DNA from: an uncultured Anaeromyxobacter sp. | Lineage (GTDB): Bacteria > Myxococcota > Myxococcia > Myxococcales > Anaeromyxobacteraceae | Assembly: GCA_903904005.1 (NCBI GenBank) | Contig: CAIVAR010000049.1 | Coordinates: 1 to 42,461, forward strand | Direction of reading: 5' to 3' | DNA length: 42,461 nucleotides | Part shown: in pieces, positions 15,122 to 22,784 of the stretch | How positions within the stretch are numbered: position 1 is the first letter of the stretch | How the letters are laid out: each line of letters opens with the position of its first letter | The notes under the pieces: model-generated | What the model saw: the letters and a program-made list of their open reading frames with translations, nothing else | What the model was told of the DNA's origin: nothing | Database searches by the model: none | Position numbers and translations under genes: made by a program

Positions 15122-15763
15122 TCAGAAGAAGTACAGGAAGGAGAGGCGGGCCACCGGCATGAACGACGTGACCTTGTAGTCGCCCGTCGTGACCACCACG
15201 TTGTTGATGGTCCCGGTGCCGCCCTTCACGTTGAGCGACAGGGCGCCGATCCCGCCCTCCAGCGCGAAGGTGAAGCCGCGCCGGCTGCCCAGCGCCACGC
15301 CCACGAGCCCCGAGAACCAGTTGTAGGAGGCGTCGCCGATGAGCGGCCACTGGGCCTCCGGGATGCCCGCCCACTTCTTGACCTGGTTCGCGGTGTTGCC
15401 GGCGAAGTAGTAGCCGTACTCGCCACGGATGATCGGGGAGATGAAGAAGTCGATGGGCCGGAACTCGAGCCCGAGGACGAAGCCGGGAGCGAGCGTGTAG
15501 GCGAAGCCCGCGTCGAGGAGGAGCCAGTAGAGGGGCGAGTAGGTGAAGGAGAGCACGGCCCCGTCCGGCGCGCCGATTGCGAGCTGGAGGCCGAACTGGG
15601 GGTAGGGCTCCTCGCGGCGAGGGGCCGGGGGAGCCGGGTCCTGGGGGGCGCCCGTCTCGGGGGTCGCAACCTGCGGCGTTGCCGCCTGCGGGGTCGCCGT
15701 CTGGGCGACCGCCAGGGAGGGCGCGGCGATCAGCGCCGCGAGGAGGACGGGGAGTAAGCGCAT
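15122..15763 (-). CDS. Putative outer-membrane beta-barrel protein
   Basis: 213 aa. A cleavable signal peptide (MRLLPVLLAALIAAPSLAVA) is followed by a low-complexity Thr-Pro-Gln/Pro linker (TPQAATPQVATPE, to about residue 53). About eight amphipathic strands rich in Gly and aromatics follow (FGLQLAIGAPDGAVLSFTYS, WLLLDAGFAYTLAPGFVLGLEF). The C-terminus VARLSFLYFF ends in Phe, the signal read by the BAM complex. Size suggests an eight-stranded barrel, but no specific family is recognised. The chosen ATG has GGAG about 9 bases upstream; an in-frame ATG 15 codons upstream lacks a signal peptide at the right position. Confidence 0.78.
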   Translation of the reverse strand: MRLLPVLLAALIAAPSLAVAQTATPQAATPQVATPETGAPQDPAPPAPRREEPYPQFGLQLAIGAPDGAVLSFTYSPLYWLLLDAGFAYTLAPGFVLGLEFRPIDFFISPIIRGEYGYYFAGNTANQVKKWAGIPEAQWPLIGDASYNWFSGLVGVALGSRRGFTFALEGGIGALSLNVKGGTGTINNVVVTTGDYKVTSFMPVARLSFLYFF

Positions 15764-15873
15764 GGAAGGCTCCGGGGATGGCGACTGCAAGGGTAGATAT
15801 CGTCGCACGGGGGAGGCGCCTCACAAAGCGGGAACCCGGGTGCCATCGGGGTACGGCCCCGGCGACCCGGAGG

Positions 15874-15882
15874 TGGTAGCTT
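15874..15882 (+). promoter_or_regulatory. Extended -10 element before the YaeQ-family gene (leaderless type)
   Basis: TGG-TAGCTT, then 8 bases, then TTG. It supports the TTG start, which in turn gives a protein of the family's usual length. Confidence 0.4.
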
Positions 15883-15890
15883 CCCGGGCC

Positions 15891-16448
15891 TTGGCGCTCC
15901 CCGCGACACTCCACGACTTCCAGATCGAGCTCGCCAACGTCGATACCGGCGTGAACCGGCTCGTCAGCCTGCGAGCGGCGAGACATCCTTCCGAGTCGAT
16001 GGAGCGGCTCTGGCTGCGCGTGCTGGCCCAGTGCTGGCAGTGGCGCGAGGGGATCGAGCAGGGGCCGGGGCTCTCCGATCCCGACGCACCCGACGTGATC
16101 GCCCGCGACCTCACGGGGGAAACCACGCTGTGGGTGCGCGTGGGGCGCCCCGACGCCACGCGGGTGCAGCAGGAGGCCGACCGGAACCGGCGCGCCGACG
16201 TGGCCGTGCTCTTCGACTCGCCCCGCCGGATGGAGGCCTTCGTCGAGGACGCCCGGGCCGCGGGGCTCTCGCGGCTCGGGCGCGTCGCGCTGGCTGCCGT
16301 GGACCCCGCGCTGCTCGCGGCGCTCGCGGGCAGCGAGGAGCGGCGGGCCAAGCTCTCCCTCACGATCGTGGGTGACCACCTGTACGTCGAGCGGGACGGC
16401 CGCTCGGTCGACGGCCCCCTGGTCAGGGCCTACATCCCCGTATCCTGA
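15891..16448 (+). CDS. YaeQ family protein
   Basis: 185 aa from a TTG start, close to the ~181 aa of E. coli YaeQ. Family landmarks are LPATLHDFQIELANVDTGVNR near the N-terminus, LRAARHPSESMERLWLRVLA, GLSDPDAPDVIARDLTGETTLWVRVGRPD, and the VAVLFDSPRR strand. YaeQ has a PD-(D/E)XK nuclease-like fold; its physiological role is not settled. The open frame continues upstream, but those residues (GDGDCKGRYRRTGEAPHKAG) are unlike the family. It stands alone, 121 bases before the suf operon and divergent from the barrel gene. Confidence 0.85.
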   Translation: MALPATLHDFQIELANVDTGVNRLVSLRAARHPSESMERLWLRVLAQCWQWREGIEQGPGLSDPDAPDVIARDLTGETTLWVRVGRPDATRVQQEADRNRRADVAVLFDSPRRMEAFVEDARAAGLSRLGRVALAAVDPALLAALAGSEERRAKLSLTIVGDHLYVERDGRSVDGPLVRAYIPVS

Positions 16449-16484
16449 CCGCAAAGGTTGTCGTGCAAGCGACGGCGCCCTCGT

Positions 16485-16490
16485 TACATT
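16485..16490 (+). promoter_or_regulatory. Candidate -10 element of the suf operon
   Basis: TACATT; no good -35 at 16-18 bases (TTGTCG is 21 bases away), which is common for activated or regulated promoters. The expected start, near 16497, falls inside the adjacent dyad. Confidence 0.4.
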
Positions 16491-16494
16491 TCCG

Positions 16495-16521
16495 CTATCG
16501 GGACCTTTTCGGTCCAGATAG
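16495..16521. promoter_or_regulatory. Dyad-symmetric candidate operator for the Rrf2 regulator of the suf operon
   Basis: Left arm CTATC-g-GGACC, spacer TTTTC, right arm GGTCC-a-GATAG: ten of eleven positions are symmetric. The core has the GAC-N7-GTC geometry of the IscR type 1 consensus. It lies directly downstream of the -10, so a bound regulator would block initiation. As RNA it would form a 5' hairpin of about 11 pairs, an alternative explanation. Confidence 0.6.
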
Positions 16522-16569
16522 GCTCCGACGTCCGGAAGCCTGCTTCCCCCCGAAAGGGTGGTCCGGTCC

Positions 16570-17030
16570 ATGATCCGCATGACCAAGCTCACAGACTACG
16601 GGATCGTCCTCCTCACCCACATGGCGATGGAGGCACCCGGCTCGTTCCACACGGCCCAGGACCTGGCCACCAGGTCGCGAATCCCGGTCCCGACCGCCTC
16701 GAAGCTCCTCAAGGCGCTCGCCCGCGCCGGCCTCGTGATCTCGCACCGCGGCCGGAACGGCGGCTACGGCCTCTCCCGGGACGCCGACGCCATCTCGGTC
16801 GCCGAGATCATCGCCGCCATCGAGGGGCCCATCGGCCTCACCGAATGCGGCACCGGCACGGAGGGGGCCTGCGACATGGAGTCCTTCTGCGCCGCCCGGG
16901 GGCGCTGGGCCCCGATCAACCAGGCCATCGAGCGGGCCCTGCAGGACGTGCCGCTGTCGGCCATGCGGCCGGCGCAGCCGCCGCCGCAGGAGCGGCTGGT
17001 CCGGCTCGAGGCCGCGTCGGGGGTGGCGCC

Positions 17031-17034
<4 letters not shown>
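16570..17034 (+). CDS. Rrf2-family Fe-S-type transcriptional regulator of the suf operon
   Basis: 154 aa. The winged-helix N-terminus [19 protein letters not shown] is characteristic of the SUF-associated Rrf2 regulators. [26 protein letters not shown] is the recognition helix region and [12 protein letters not shown] the wing. Three cysteines, Cys93, Cys101 and Cys107 (spacing C-x7-C-x5-C), match the IscR cluster-binding triad, with one spacing slightly longer than IscR. It should sense Fe-S status and control its own operon through the dyad 50-75 bases upstream. Start choice between this ATG and one three codons later is open. Its stop overlaps the sufB GTG (GTGA). Confidence 0.93.
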
Positions 17035-18469
<1,435 letters not shown>

Positions 18470-18473
<4 letters not shown>

Positions 18474-19240
18474 GCCAGCAGCCGAACGACGGGACGCCGC
18501 TGCTCGAGGTGCGCGCCCTGCAGGCCCGCATCGACGACAAGGCGATCCTGAAGGGCCTCGACCTCACCGTGATGCCGGGCGAGGTGCACGCCATCATGGG
18601 GCCGAACGGCTCCGGGAAGAGCACCTTCGCCGGCGTGCTGGCCGGACGGGATCGGGCCGAGGTCACCGGCGGCAGCGCCACCCTCGACGGGAAGGACCTG
18701 CTCGCCATGGCCCCGGAGGAGCGGGCCGTGGCCGGTCTCTTCCTGGGCTTCCAGTACCCGGTGGAGATCCCCGGCGTGGGGAACATGTACTTCCTGCGCA
18801 CGGCGTTGAACGCCCAGCGCAGGGCCCGCGGCGAGGAAGAGCTCGACGCGGTCGACTTCCTGGGACTCGCGAAGGAGAAGATGAAGCTCGTCGAGATGGA
18901 CCCGGCCTTCATGAACCGGGGGGTCAACGAGGGCTTCTCCGGCGGCGAGAAGAAGCGCAACGAGGTGCTGCAGATGGCGGTGCTCGAGCCTCGCCTCTCC
19001 ATCCTCGACGAGATCGACAGCGGCCTCGACATCGACGCCCTGCGGGTGGTGGCGAGGGGCGTCGAGGCGCTGCGCAGCCCGGACAGGGCCACCCTCCTCG
19101 TCACCCACTACCAGCGGCTCCTCGAGTACATCGTCCCCGACAAGATCCACGTGATGGCCGGCGGCCGGATCGTCCGGACGGGCGGGCGCGAGCTGGCGCT
19201 CGAGCTCGAGAAGAAGGGCTACGCCTGGGTGGAGCCGTGA
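18470..19240 (+). CDS. sufC: Fe-S cluster assembly ATPase SufC
   Basis: 256 aa ABC-type ATPase of the SufBCD complex. Walker [10 protein letters not shown] (44-52), the SufC-specific signature [10 protein letters not shown], Walker [13 protein letters not shown] and H-loop VTHYQR are intact. ATP-driven dimerisation of SufC rearranges the SufB-SufD interface. Start overlaps the sufB stop as ATGA. Confidence 0.98.
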
Positions 19241-20547
19241 ACGAGGCGGCCCGGAGCCTGCTCGCGGGTGCGGAGTCGCTCCCCAGCGCGCCCGAGTTCG
19301 TCGCCTCGGTCCGGCGCGCGGGACGCGAGGCCTTCGAGCGGGAGGGGCTGCCCACCACGCGCCAGGAGGACTGGCGCTTCACCTCGCTCGCCCCGCTCGC
19401 CGCCCACTCCTTCGGGCGCGGCGACCCGGCGGAGCAGGTCACGCCGGCCGAGCTGGAGCGGGTGGCCGGCAAGTCCTTCGGGCCGCGCCTGGTCTTCGTG
19501 AACGGCCGGTTCGACGCCGGGCTCTCCACGGCCCACGGTCTGCCCGCCGGCGTCCACGCGTCGAGCCTGCACCATGCCATCGCCGTGTCGCCCGCGCTCG
19601 TGGAGCGGAGCCTGGCCCGCACCGTCGCGGTCGGCGGCCGCCCGTTCGCGGCACTCAACGGCGCCTTCCTCGGTGACGGGGCCTTCGTCCACGTCGACGC
19701 CGCGGCGCGCGGCGGCCCCGTCGAGCTGGTGTTCGCCACCGTGGCCCGGGATCGACCCGCCGCCTGCCACCCCCGCGTCCTGGTCGTCGCCGACGCCGGC
19801 GGCGAGGCGACGCTCGTGGAGACCTACGTGGCGATCGGCGAGCACCCGGCCCTCACCAACGCCGTCACCGAGGTCTCGCTCGGCGACGGCGCGCGCCTCG
19901 ACCACTACCAGGTGCAGGACCAGCCGGCCTCCGCCTTCCACCACGCCACCCTGGCCGTCCTGCAGGGGAAGGGGACGCGCCTCTCCAGCCACTCGACCGC
20001 GCTCGGGGGCGCCCTCTCGCGCAGCGACGTTCTCGCGCGGCTCGCCGGCGAGGGTGCCGAGACCCACCTGGCCGGTCTCTACATGGCCGACGGCGGGCGG
20101 CTCGTCGACAACCACTCGGTGATCGAACACGCCGGCCCGGGTGGCACGAGCCGCGAGCTCTTCAAGGGCATCCTCGACGGGGAGTCGCGCGGCGTCTTCG
20201 CAGGCCGCATCCGCGTCCTCGAGGGGGCGGTGAAGACCGACGCCCACCAGTCCAACTCCAACCTGCTGCTCTCCCGGGACGCCATCGTCGACTCGATGCC
20301 GCAGCTCGAGATCTACACCGACGAGGTGAAGGCGGGGCATGGCGGCACGGTGGGCGAGCTCGACGCCGACGCGCTCTTCTACCTGCGCTCGCGCGGGATC
20401 CCCGCCGCGGCCGCACGTGGGCTGCTCATCTACGCCTTCGCCCGCGAGATGGTGGACCGGGTGGCCGTGCCGGCGCTGCGCGACCGCCTGGGGCGGCTCG
20501 TGGCGGGCCGCCTGCCCGGCGGCGTGGCCATCCTGGAGGGCGCATGA
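19237..20547 (+). CDS. sufD: Fe-S cluster assembly protein SufD
   Basis: 436 aa. Paralogue of SufB that contributes the partner side of the scaffold. Landmarks: N-terminal GLPTTRQEDWRFTSLAPL, LDHYQVQDQPASAFH, and the core NHSVIEHAGPGGTSRELFKGIL, ILEG-like RVLEGAVKTDAHQSNSNLLLS, then TDEVKAGHGGTVGELDADALFYLRSRGI with the conserved His. GTG start inside the sufC stop (GTGA). Confidence 0.97.
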   Translation: MNEAARSLLAGAESLPSAPEFVASVRRAGREAFEREGLPTTRQEDWRFTSLAPLAAHSFGRGDPAEQVTPAELERVAGKSFGPRLVFVNGRFDAGLSTAHGLPAGVHASSLHHAIAVSPALVERSLARTVAVGGRPFAALNGAFLGDGAFVHVDAAARGGPVELVFATVARDRPAACHPRVLVVADAGGEATLVETYVAIGEHPALTNAVTEVSLGDGARLDHYQVQDQPASAFHHATLAVLQGKGTRLSSHSTALGGALSRSDVLARLAGEGAETHLAGLYMADGGRLVDNHSVIEHAGPGGTSRELFKGILDGESRGVFAGRIRVLEGAVKTDAHQSNSNLLLSRDAIVDSMPQLEIYTDEVKAGHGGTVGELDADALFYLRSRGIPAAAARGLLIYAFAREMVDRVAVPALRDRLGRLVAGRLPGGVAILEGA

Positions 20548-21761
20548 GCTTCGACGTCGAGGCGGTGCGCCGACAGTTCCCGGTGCTCGCCCAGCGGCCG
20601 CACGGCAAGAGGCTCGCCTTCCTGGACAGCGGCGCCACGGCCCAGAAGCCGCAGGTCGTGATCGACGCGGTGACCCGCTTCTACGACCGGGACAATTCCA
20701 ACGTGCACCGCGGGGTCTACGACCTGGCCGAGCGTGCCACCGCGGCGTTCGAGGGGGCCCGCAAGCGGATCGCCCGCTGGATCGGCGCCGATCCCCGCGA
20801 GGTGATCTTCACCCGTGGGACGACCGAGGGCGTGAACCTGGTGGCCCAGTCGTGGGGGCGGGCGAACGTCGGGCCGGGCGACGAGATCCTGCTCACCGGG
20901 ATGGAACACCACTCCAACATCGTGCCCTGGCAGCTGCTCGCCGCCGAGAAGGGGGCGAAGCTCGTGGTGGTCCCGGTCGACGATCAGGGCGCCGTGCATC
21001 TCGCCGACTTCGAGCGGCTCATCGGGCCCCGCACCCGCATCGTCGCCGTGACCCACGTCTCCAACGCGCTCGGGACCGTGAATCCGGTGAAGGAGATCGT
21101 GCGCCTCGCGCACGCCCGCGGCGTGCCGGTCCTCGTCGACGGCGCCCAGGCCGTGCCCCACCTCCGGGTCGACGTCCGCGACCTCGACGCCGACTTCTAC
21201 GTCTTCAGCGGCCACAAGATGTTCGGACCCACCGGGATCGGCGTCCTCTACGGGAAGGCGAAGCTGCTCGAGGCCATGCCCCCCTGGCAGGGCGGCGGGG
21301 ACATGATCCTCTCGGTCTCCTTCTCGGGGACGAAGTTCAACACCATCCCCCACAAGTTCGAGGCCGGCACGCCCGACGCGGCCGGCGCCGTGGGTCTGGG
21401 TGCCGCGGTCGACTGGCTCGAGGGGCTCGACCGGGCCGGGGCCGAGGCCCACGAACGTGACCTGCTCGCCTACGCCACGAACCGGCTCCAGGAGATCCCC
21501 GGGCTCCGCATCATCGGCACCGCTCCGGGCAAGGCCGCGGTGATCTCCTTCGTGATGGAGGGGGTCCACCCGCACGACGTGGGCACCATCCTCGACCACG
21601 AGGGGGTCGCGGTTCGCGCCGGGCACCACTGCGCGCAGCCGCTCATGGAGCGGTTCGGCGTGCCGGCCACGGTGCGCGCCTCGATGGCCCTCTACAACAC
21701 CCGCGAGGACGTGGACCAGCTGGTCCAGGGTCTCCGCCGCGTCCGGGAGATGTTCCCATGA
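20544..21761 (+). CDS. sufS: Cysteine desulfurase SufS
   Basis: 405 aa group II cysteine desulfurase that supplies persulfide sulfur from L-cysteine. The PLP lysine is Lys225 in FSGHKMFGPTGIG, and the catalytic persulfide cysteine is Cys363 in RAGHHCAQPLM. DNSNVHRGVYDLAERAT and RGTTEGVNLVAQSWG are the N-terminal landmarks. Start overlaps sufD as ATGA. Confidence 0.98.
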   Translation: MSFDVEAVRRQFPVLAQRPHGKRLAFLDSGATAQKPQVVIDAVTRFYDRDNSNVHRGVYDLAERATAAFEGARKRIARWIGADPREVIFTRGTTEGVNLVAQSWGRANVGPGDEILLTGMEHHSNIVPWQLLAAEKGAKLVVVPVDDQGAVHLADFERLIGPRTRIVAVTHVSNALGTVNPVKEIVRLAHARGVPVLVDGAQAVPHLRVDVRDLDADFYVFSGHKMFGPTGIGVLYGKAKLLEAMPPWQGGGDMILSVSFSGTKFNTIPHKFEAGTPDAAGAVGLGAAVDWLEGLDRAGAEAHERDLLAYATNRLQEIPGLRIIGTAPGKAAVISFVMEGVHPHDVGTILDHEGVAVRAGHHCAQPLMERFGVPATVRASMALYNTREDVDQLVQGLRRVREMFP

Positions 21762-22204
21762 GCGACCTGTCCGACCTCTACCAGGAGGTCATCCTCGACC
21801 ACGGGCGCAACCCCAGGAACTTCCGTGTCATGGCCGATGCCACGGCCACGGCGGAGGGGCTGAACCCCCTCTGCGGTGATCGGTACGGCGTCTTCCTCCG
21901 GATGGACGGCGATCGGATCGCCGACGTCTCCTTCCAGGGATCGGGATGCGCCATCTCCAAGGCCTCGGCCTCGCTCATGAGCCAGGCGCTGAAGGGCAAG
22001 AGCGCCGCCGAGGCCGAGGATCTCTTCCAGCGCTTCCACAAGATGGTCGTGGAGGGGGACGCGTCGCAGGCCGATGGCCTCGGCAAGCTCGCGGTCCTGA
22101 AGGGCGTGGCCGATTTTCCCACCCGCGTGAAGTGCGCGAGCCTGGCCTGGCACGCGCTGCACGCGGCACTGCGCGGCGAATCCCAGCCGGCGACGACGGA
22201 GTGA
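21758..22204 (+). CDS. sufU: SufU-type sulfur acceptor / scaffold protein
   Basis: 148 aa. IscU-like fold with Cys39-Gly-Asp41 in NPLCGD, Cys64 in GSGCAIS and Cys126 in RVKCASLAWHAL, which are the zinc/persulfide ligands of SufU. The segment between the second and third cysteines is longer than in IscU, as is typical of SufU, which takes persulfide from SufS and replaces SufE. No SufE or SufA gene is present in the operon. Start overlaps sufS (ATGA). Confidence 0.96.
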   Translation: MSDLSDLYQEVILDHGRNPRNFRVMADATATAEGLNPLCGDRYGVFLRMDGDRIADVSFQGSGCAISKASASLMSQALKGKSAAEAEDLFQRFHKMVVEGDASQADGLGKLAVLKGVADFPTRVKCASLAWHALHAALRGESQPATTE

Positions 22205-22208
22205 GACG

Positions 22209-22784
22209 ATGGAGCGCCGCGAACCGGTCTCGCTGAGCCGCGCCGTGGAGGTCACGCTCGTGCCCTCCGGTGAGAAGCACCTCCTGCCCGAGGGCGCGCT
22301 CGTCATGCCCCAGCAGGAGCTGGGCGGCCACTTCACGATCATGCTCGACCGAGGCGGCCTGGCCCGCCTCGCCAACGAGGACGCCGACGCGCTGGGGCCG
22401 GCCTTCGCCGAGCGGGCCCGCAAGGTCGCCGAGGCCGAGAAGGCGCGGCTCGCCGAGGCGAGCGGCCAGCCCTTCGACGAGCAGGAGGTCTGGGAGGCGC
22501 TGAAGAAGGTCTTCGACCCGGAGATCCCGGCGAGCATCGTCGACCTCGGGCTCGTCTACGAGCTCATCCACGCCGAGCGCCCCGAGGGCGGCCGCAAGGT
22601 CACCATCCGGATGACCCTCACCGCGCCCGGCTGCGGCGTCGCGCCGATGATCCTCGACGACGTCCGGGAGCGGGTGGCGAAGGTCCCCGGCGTCGGGGCC
22701 GTCGACGTCGACCTGGTCTTCGATCCGCCCTGGACCCCGGAGAAGATGAGCGACGCCGCGCGGTTGCAGCTCGGCTTCTGGTAG
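22209..22784 (+). CDS. sufT: SufT family Fe-S assembly protein (long form with MIP18/DUF59 domain)
   Basis: 191 aa. The N-terminal ~90 residues (PVSLSRAVEVTLVPSGEKHLLPEG) form the extension of the long SufT proteins. The C-terminal DUF59/MIP18 domain runs from EVWEALKKVFDPEIPASIVDLGLVYEL through TLTAPGCGVAPMI to VDVDLVFDPPWTPEKMSD. The conserved Cys of APGCG is present. SufT proteins help maturation of Fe-S targets. It is the last gene of the operon, 4 bases after sufU, and converges on the histidine kinase gene. Confidence 0.95.
   Translation: MERREPVSLSRAVEVTLVPSGEKHLLPEGALVMPQQELGGHFTIMLDRGGLARLANEDADALGPAFAERARKVAEAEKARLAEASGQPFDEQEVWEALKKVFDPEIPASIVDLGLVYELIHAERPEGGRKVTIRMTLTAPGCGVAPMILDDVRERVAKVPGVGAVDVDLVFDPPWTPEKMSDAARLQLGFW

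Follow-up and report, generated by a model that had tools for sequence, protein, structure and literature searches.

An inverted repeat in front of the suf operon of an uncultured Anaeromyxobacter sp. raises the question of which regulator, if any, reads it. The original prediction, made from the window (the whole stretch of 42,461 nucleotides analysed here), took the repeat for a variant IscR-type operator, to be read by the Rrf2-family product of the operon's first gene. Our comparisons point to a regulator of another type within that family. We consider it highly probable, judging from sequence and orthology, that a RisR orthologue regulates its own operon with the dyad as operator, repressing risR-sufBCDSUT when loaded with an Fe-S cluster.

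The dyad in front of the suf operon

The dyad, CTATC-g-GGACC-TTTTC-GGTCC-a-GATAG, occupies positions 16495 to 16521, with no strand assigned. Its left half consists of CTATC (16495-16499), g (16500) and GGACC (16501-16505), followed by TTTTC (16506-16510) and then by the right half, GGTCC (16511-16515), a (16516) and GATAG (16517-16521). As originally described, the repeat is nearly perfect, since ten of its 11 arm positions pair, and its core, GGACC-N5-GGTCC (16501-16515), holds a GAC (16502-16504) and a GTC (16512-16514) separated by seven bases. It also begins just 3' of TACATT (16485-16490, forward strand), with four bases between the two. We take this hexamer, which recurs in the same-genus loci L002, L003 and L004, as a candidate -10 element, no convincing -35 element being noted, and it suggests that the dyad lies near a transcription start. 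The surrounding gap of 121 bases (16449-16569) separates a yaeQ-like gene (15762-16448; Pfam YaeQ) from the Rrf2-family gene, whose start is taken at 16570, and such a dyad appeared in this gap in 14 of 3000 shuffles. We designate it a proposed RisR operator from its sequence, from the conservation of its core and from a search of its genome (4.56 Mb), in which nothing else matches it with three or fewer mismatches. Dyads of such quality are not rare in this GC-rich window, which holds 29 registers with a loop of 3-9 bases and no fewer than 10 of the 11 arm positions paired, compared with 11-23 in eight dinucleotide shuffles. The dyad by itself is thus unexceptional in the window, and the case for an operator rests on comparison and conservation across relatives.

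The regulator at the head of the operon

The operon on the forward strand has the order rrf2-sufBCDSUT, with the regulator gene (16570-17034, 154 amino acids) at its head. It is followed by sufB (17031-18473; NF008773), sufC (18470-19240; TIGR01978), sufD (19237-20547; TIGR01981), sufS (20544-21761; TIGR01979) and sufU (21758-22204; TIGR01994), each above the cut-off of its model, and by a long form of sufT (22209-22784), which at 196.4 bits falls slightly below the TIGR03406 cut-off of 202.6. The first gene product matches Pfam Rrf2 and has the three cysteines that had been noticed, C93, C101 and C107, all invariant among 21 aligned orthologues, as are R60, G61, G64, G65 and L68 of the wing motif Gx2GGx2L with its arginine. 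The solved structures closest to it are distant Rrf2 proteins (best E value 1.7e-11). It passes the SUF regulator model TIGR02944 (124.6 bits, cut-off 110.65) but lies far below the IscR model TIGR02010 (67.6 bits against 207.55), a second IscR model (46.6 against 275) and the cut-offs for RirA, CymR and NsrR. An operator of IscR type is therefore rejected, and this part of the original prediction has to be given up.

The known relative of this protein is RisR of Myxococcus xanthus (L097), which gives 135.4 bits with TIGR02944 and the same picture across the models; this orthology suggests that the regulator belongs with the RisR subgroup IS6. As described in the part of the report available to us (PMC9973013; Sourice et al. 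2023), M. xanthus RisR heads risR-sufBCDSUT, has a spectrum suggesting a [4Fe-4S] cluster and, in its holo form, represses both suf and isc. Its footprint of about 30 bp contains T t/g GAC-N7-GTCC t/a, and expression of isc and suf rises 3- and 4-fold when a half-site is disrupted. The same report assigns RisR and IscR to subgroups far apart from each other, with the base-reading residues of IscR not kept in RisR, and states that no member of the large Rrf2 subgroup of RisR had been investigated earlier. The window's site is the orthologous element of the M. xanthus site, and the conserved core, together with the gene order shared with that footprinted site, points to an operator of RisR rather than IscR type.

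Conservation of the core

A RisR orthologue (L002-L030, 47-100% identical) is present in 29 of 60 genomes of the order; 20 of these are members of the same family, and nine belong to another, represented in public records by Myxococcus, Corallococcus and relatives. In 27 of the 29, GGAC-N7-GTCC lies no more than 150 bases upstream of rrf2, so that the core is kept in front of related rrf2-suf operons, where the original prediction had proposed to look for it. The exceptions are L005, whose right end reads GTCT, and L008 (genome G007), in which RisR is present and the site has degenerated to GTACC-N5-GGTTC. Across 19 of the 20 family leaders (L008 left out; 17 distinct), the columns from -5 to about +25 relative to GGAC have a high information content, which defines a conserved block of about 30 bp made up of the operator and its right flank (16496-16526 of the window, forward strand). 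Outside the block the content is mostly low or near background, and the distance from site to start codon varies from 44 to 136 bases. Because the core is kept while the flanks diverge, the dyad stands above chance.

The outer arms behave differently. The original prediction saw in CTATC/GATAG a variant peculiar to this lineage, but ATC...GAT turns out to be part of a wider motif, and three same-genus leaders with an identical core have GATAG as the right outer arm in two cases and GTTAG in the third (L004), which means that the outer symmetry is not itself conserved. Compared with the RisR consensus, the window's site matches GGAC-N7-GTCC and the right-hand A, whereas the outer left T is a G, the base found in the window's genus and in three of 26 distinct sites of the order. 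The proposal of an operator for the Rrf2 regulator of the first gene is accordingly upheld in its conserved GAC-N7-GTC core, and fails in its IscR type and in its lineage-specific arms.

Related motifs occur beyond the order. In a scan of 110 loci, 80 of them public (18 of which repeat upstream regions of the first set), a suf gene lies beside the regulator in 107, and 61 have 9-10 of 10 matches to TGGAC-N7-GTCCA, where shuffles predict 0.8. A matrix built from the sites of L002-L030 except L008 (28 loci, 26 distinct sites) was tested on 47 loci upstream of distant RisR homologues, 46 of them distinct, with L103, L107, L113 and L140 excluded (L140 scores 0.8). Its score is above the 99th shuffle percentile in 37 of these 46 regions and above the 95th in 44. 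About 20 of the 46 come from Azospirillum and relatives, where the site reads AATCAGGACTAAATTGGTCCTGTAT, and the set includes L105, L106, L108, L116, L129, L138 and L145, which are labelled Deltaproteobacteria, Sandaracinaceae or Myxococcaceae.

Two side observations came from the same loci. Upstream of the distant homologues L101, L124, L133 and L149 the half-sites read GTAC instead of GGAC, and these proteins may offer a natural test of the residues that set specificity. The record L098, titled Comamonas sp. KCTC 72670, contains a Myxococcus-like risR leader and protein and is probably mislabelled or contaminated.

isc promoters and the apparent loss of ISC

A GAC-N7-GTC core beside a TATA-like element, matching the isc site of M. 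xanthus, is found in 14 of 18 isc promoters of relatives, all except L053, L054, L066 and L067; no IscS start was found in L052, L056, L057 and L059, and L064 and L065 repeat genomes already counted. The window's own genus stands out in this respect. None of its four genomes (G000-G003), three of which are 98-99% complete, has an HscA above the cut-off, against 50 of the 60 genomes in the whole set and 19 of the 20 other family members. HscB is likewise found in none of the four at an E value of 1e-3, with all eight others tested positive, and IscU reaches its cut-off in none, with all four others tested positive. A standalone IscS-like gene is present in the genus (586.9 bits in G000, below the IscS cut-off of 643.2). 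No such site precedes it in L152 or L154, no start being found in L153, and the narrower site pattern is absent upstream of it in all three of these loci. The genus thus appears to have lost ISC and to have kept RisR for SUF. Since its ISC marker genes are missing, RisR there probably serves SUF rather than ISC, and suf is probably the only machinery that it controls.

A similar site in a sigma factor promoter

Among the matches listed by our site search, similar sequences occur in G000 and G002 in front of a sigma-70 family gene of RpoH/RpoS type, which lies downstream of rpoC (named from its translation) and for which, among 25 models listed, only the superfamily model TIGR02937 is above its cut-off. 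Its promoter has the form TTGACY (-35) N5 RGTCCA N6 TAAnnT, so that a RisR-like TTGACY-N5-RGTCCA is set between the -35 and -10 elements (L187:3518-3533 on G000:C26; L190-L207). Exact TTGAC-N7-GTCC is present at this promoter in 18 of the 20 family loci, nearly so in L204 and not in L208. Outside the family the motif occurs in one of ten loci (L210), and TTGAC-N7-GTCC in none of ten further stretches. In 19 distinct sigma promoters TTGAC and GTC never vary and the TAA of the -10 element hardly does, unlike the five bases that separate the half-sites. The -35 element accounts for TTGACT but not for the constant RGTCCA in the spacer. Exact TTGACYN5RGTCC occurs at 22 places in five genomes, and the sigma site is the only one common to all five, because G007 has no other. 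A second palindrome, CGTTACGTAAC or CGTAACGTAAC/CGTAACGTTAC, is conserved in these promoters (L189-L206) just after the -10 element, some 31-41 bases downstream of where TTGAC begins.

From this pattern we regard it as an evenly balanced question whether an Fe-S-sensing operator is built into the sigma promoter of the Anaeromyxobacteraceae, to be read by RisR or by a second Rrf2 protein. The sigma factor gene may in this way be wired to Fe-S status; if so, Fe-S shortage would release a sigma-factor regulon besides the Fe-S assembly genes. The literature covered (titles and beginnings of abstracts, with few subscription journals) yielded no RisR-controlled sigma factor and no operators of other IS6 members.

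A wide regulon was looked for in genome-wide counts, which leave room for targets beyond the suf and sigma sites. With one mismatch allowed, TGGACYN5RGTCCA is rarer than its reversed control in six of seven genomes and slightly commoner in G006 (31 against 25). In the three same-genus genomes, TATCNGGACYN5RGTCC with two mismatches always outnumbers its control (26+31 against 19+18, 36+32 against 21+22, and 33+29 against 18+18).

Alternative readings of the dyad

The sites in genomes that have no RisR bear on who reads the window's dyad. In genus g3, RisR-like sites stand before sufB, iscS and the sigma gene (L219:4406-4422 in genome G005; L058 and L198), and no RisR orthologue was found: the best match in G005 reaches 82.8 bits, as opposed to 224.2 for the true orthologue of G006. 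GAC-N7-GTC beside a TATA-like element is also present in five of nine isc promoters (L261, L262, L263, L267 and L268) from RisR-free genomes of the order, a tenth having no IscS start. These two findings together indicate that other Rrf2 proteins probably read the core, which would make GAC-N7-GTC a target of more than one member of the family. A candidate, the conserved paralogue Rrf2-B (L223, G000:C139), is encoded in the window's own genome and in G001, G005, G006 and G010; it is above the Rrf2 superfamily cut-off and below those of TIGR02944 and all named subfamilies. We nevertheless think it unlikely that Rrf2-B or another such protein is the main occupant of the window's site and RisR not its chief reader, as risR follows this site directly, the Rrf2-B genes have no matrix match of 9 or more around them, and the orthologous site in M. 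xanthus is bound and used by RisR according to the available part of its report (PMC9973013).

The dyad is close to the candidate start, and it could in principle act as an RNA hairpin in the 5' leader. Compensatory change, which the original prediction had named as the sign of such a hairpin, gives a divided answer. With L008, L031, L079, sites scoring below 6.6 and cut-off sites set aside, the order provides 32 distinct sites, in which the core and inner pairs show no covariation (d3, for example, has 14 Watson-Crick pairs against 14.4 expected), and only d12, outside the core, pairs beyond chance (p 0.023). When these are pooled with 34 distinct sites from more distant loci, pairs d2, d6, d8, d9 and d12 covary above shuffles. 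We attribute the pooled signal to coordinated substitution in the two halves of a site bound by a homodimer, as where T..A in the order is A..T in Azospirillum, while pairing would also fit these numbers. Position argues for DNA, because the motif follows the candidate -10 element here but, in the reported M. xanthus suf promoter, overlaps the -35 and -10 elements and so would not be transcribed as a unit; a protein footprint also exists there (PMC9973013). On the covariation within the order and the position in M. xanthus, a hairpin is disfavoured and seems to us very improbable. A functionless chance repeat is hardly credible either, for all the comparable dyads in the window, and is rejected on the conservation of the core amid diverging flanks.

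Discussion

The operator of a RisR orthologue is thus our preferred reading of the dyad. With the dyad, its conservation, the orthology and the gene order observed, we infer binding, cluster and repression in the source organism, and likewise the start site. Loaded with an Fe-S cluster, which by analogy with M. xanthus is probably [4Fe-4S], a RisR homodimer would bind both GGAC half-sites across the promoter or start region and hinder RNA polymerase, which would keep risR-sufBCDSUT low while Fe-S clusters are plentiful. Under iron shortage, or when oxidants destroy the cluster, apo-RisR would let go and the operon would be induced. Our results carry an operator known from one species over to a sister family and, as far as sequence shows, to homologues in other phyla, and they provide a motif with which a large Rrf2 subgroup can be searched.

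The type 1 site of IscR in Escherichia coli shares with the present site the GAC-N7-GTC core, an Rrf2 Fe-S regulator and feedback on Fe-S assembly. It differs in the bases beside the core, and the regulator described here is far below the IscR models. For the sigma site, a parallel is offered by IscR of Caulobacter crescentus, an Rrf2 Fe-S regulator whose binding at the sigma factor gene rpoH is confirmed in the accessible part of the report, although it belongs to another Rrf2 subfamily and recognizes other motifs (PMC11475020). The closest counterpart of the window's site is the M. xanthus RisR operator as reported (PMC9973013), with which it has in common the GAC-N7-GTC(C) core, the AT-rich outer arms, the position before risR-sufBCDSUT and an orthologous regulator (L097 is about 51% identical, and both pass TIGR02944). 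The two differ in the base to the left of the core, which is G here (GGGAC) and T there, in the placement of the site, which here comes after the candidate -10 element rather than spanning both promoter elements, and in the missing ISC marker genes of the window's genus. This kind of operator is already known by experiment from M. xanthus, and the dyad described here is best taken as an example from a new lineage.
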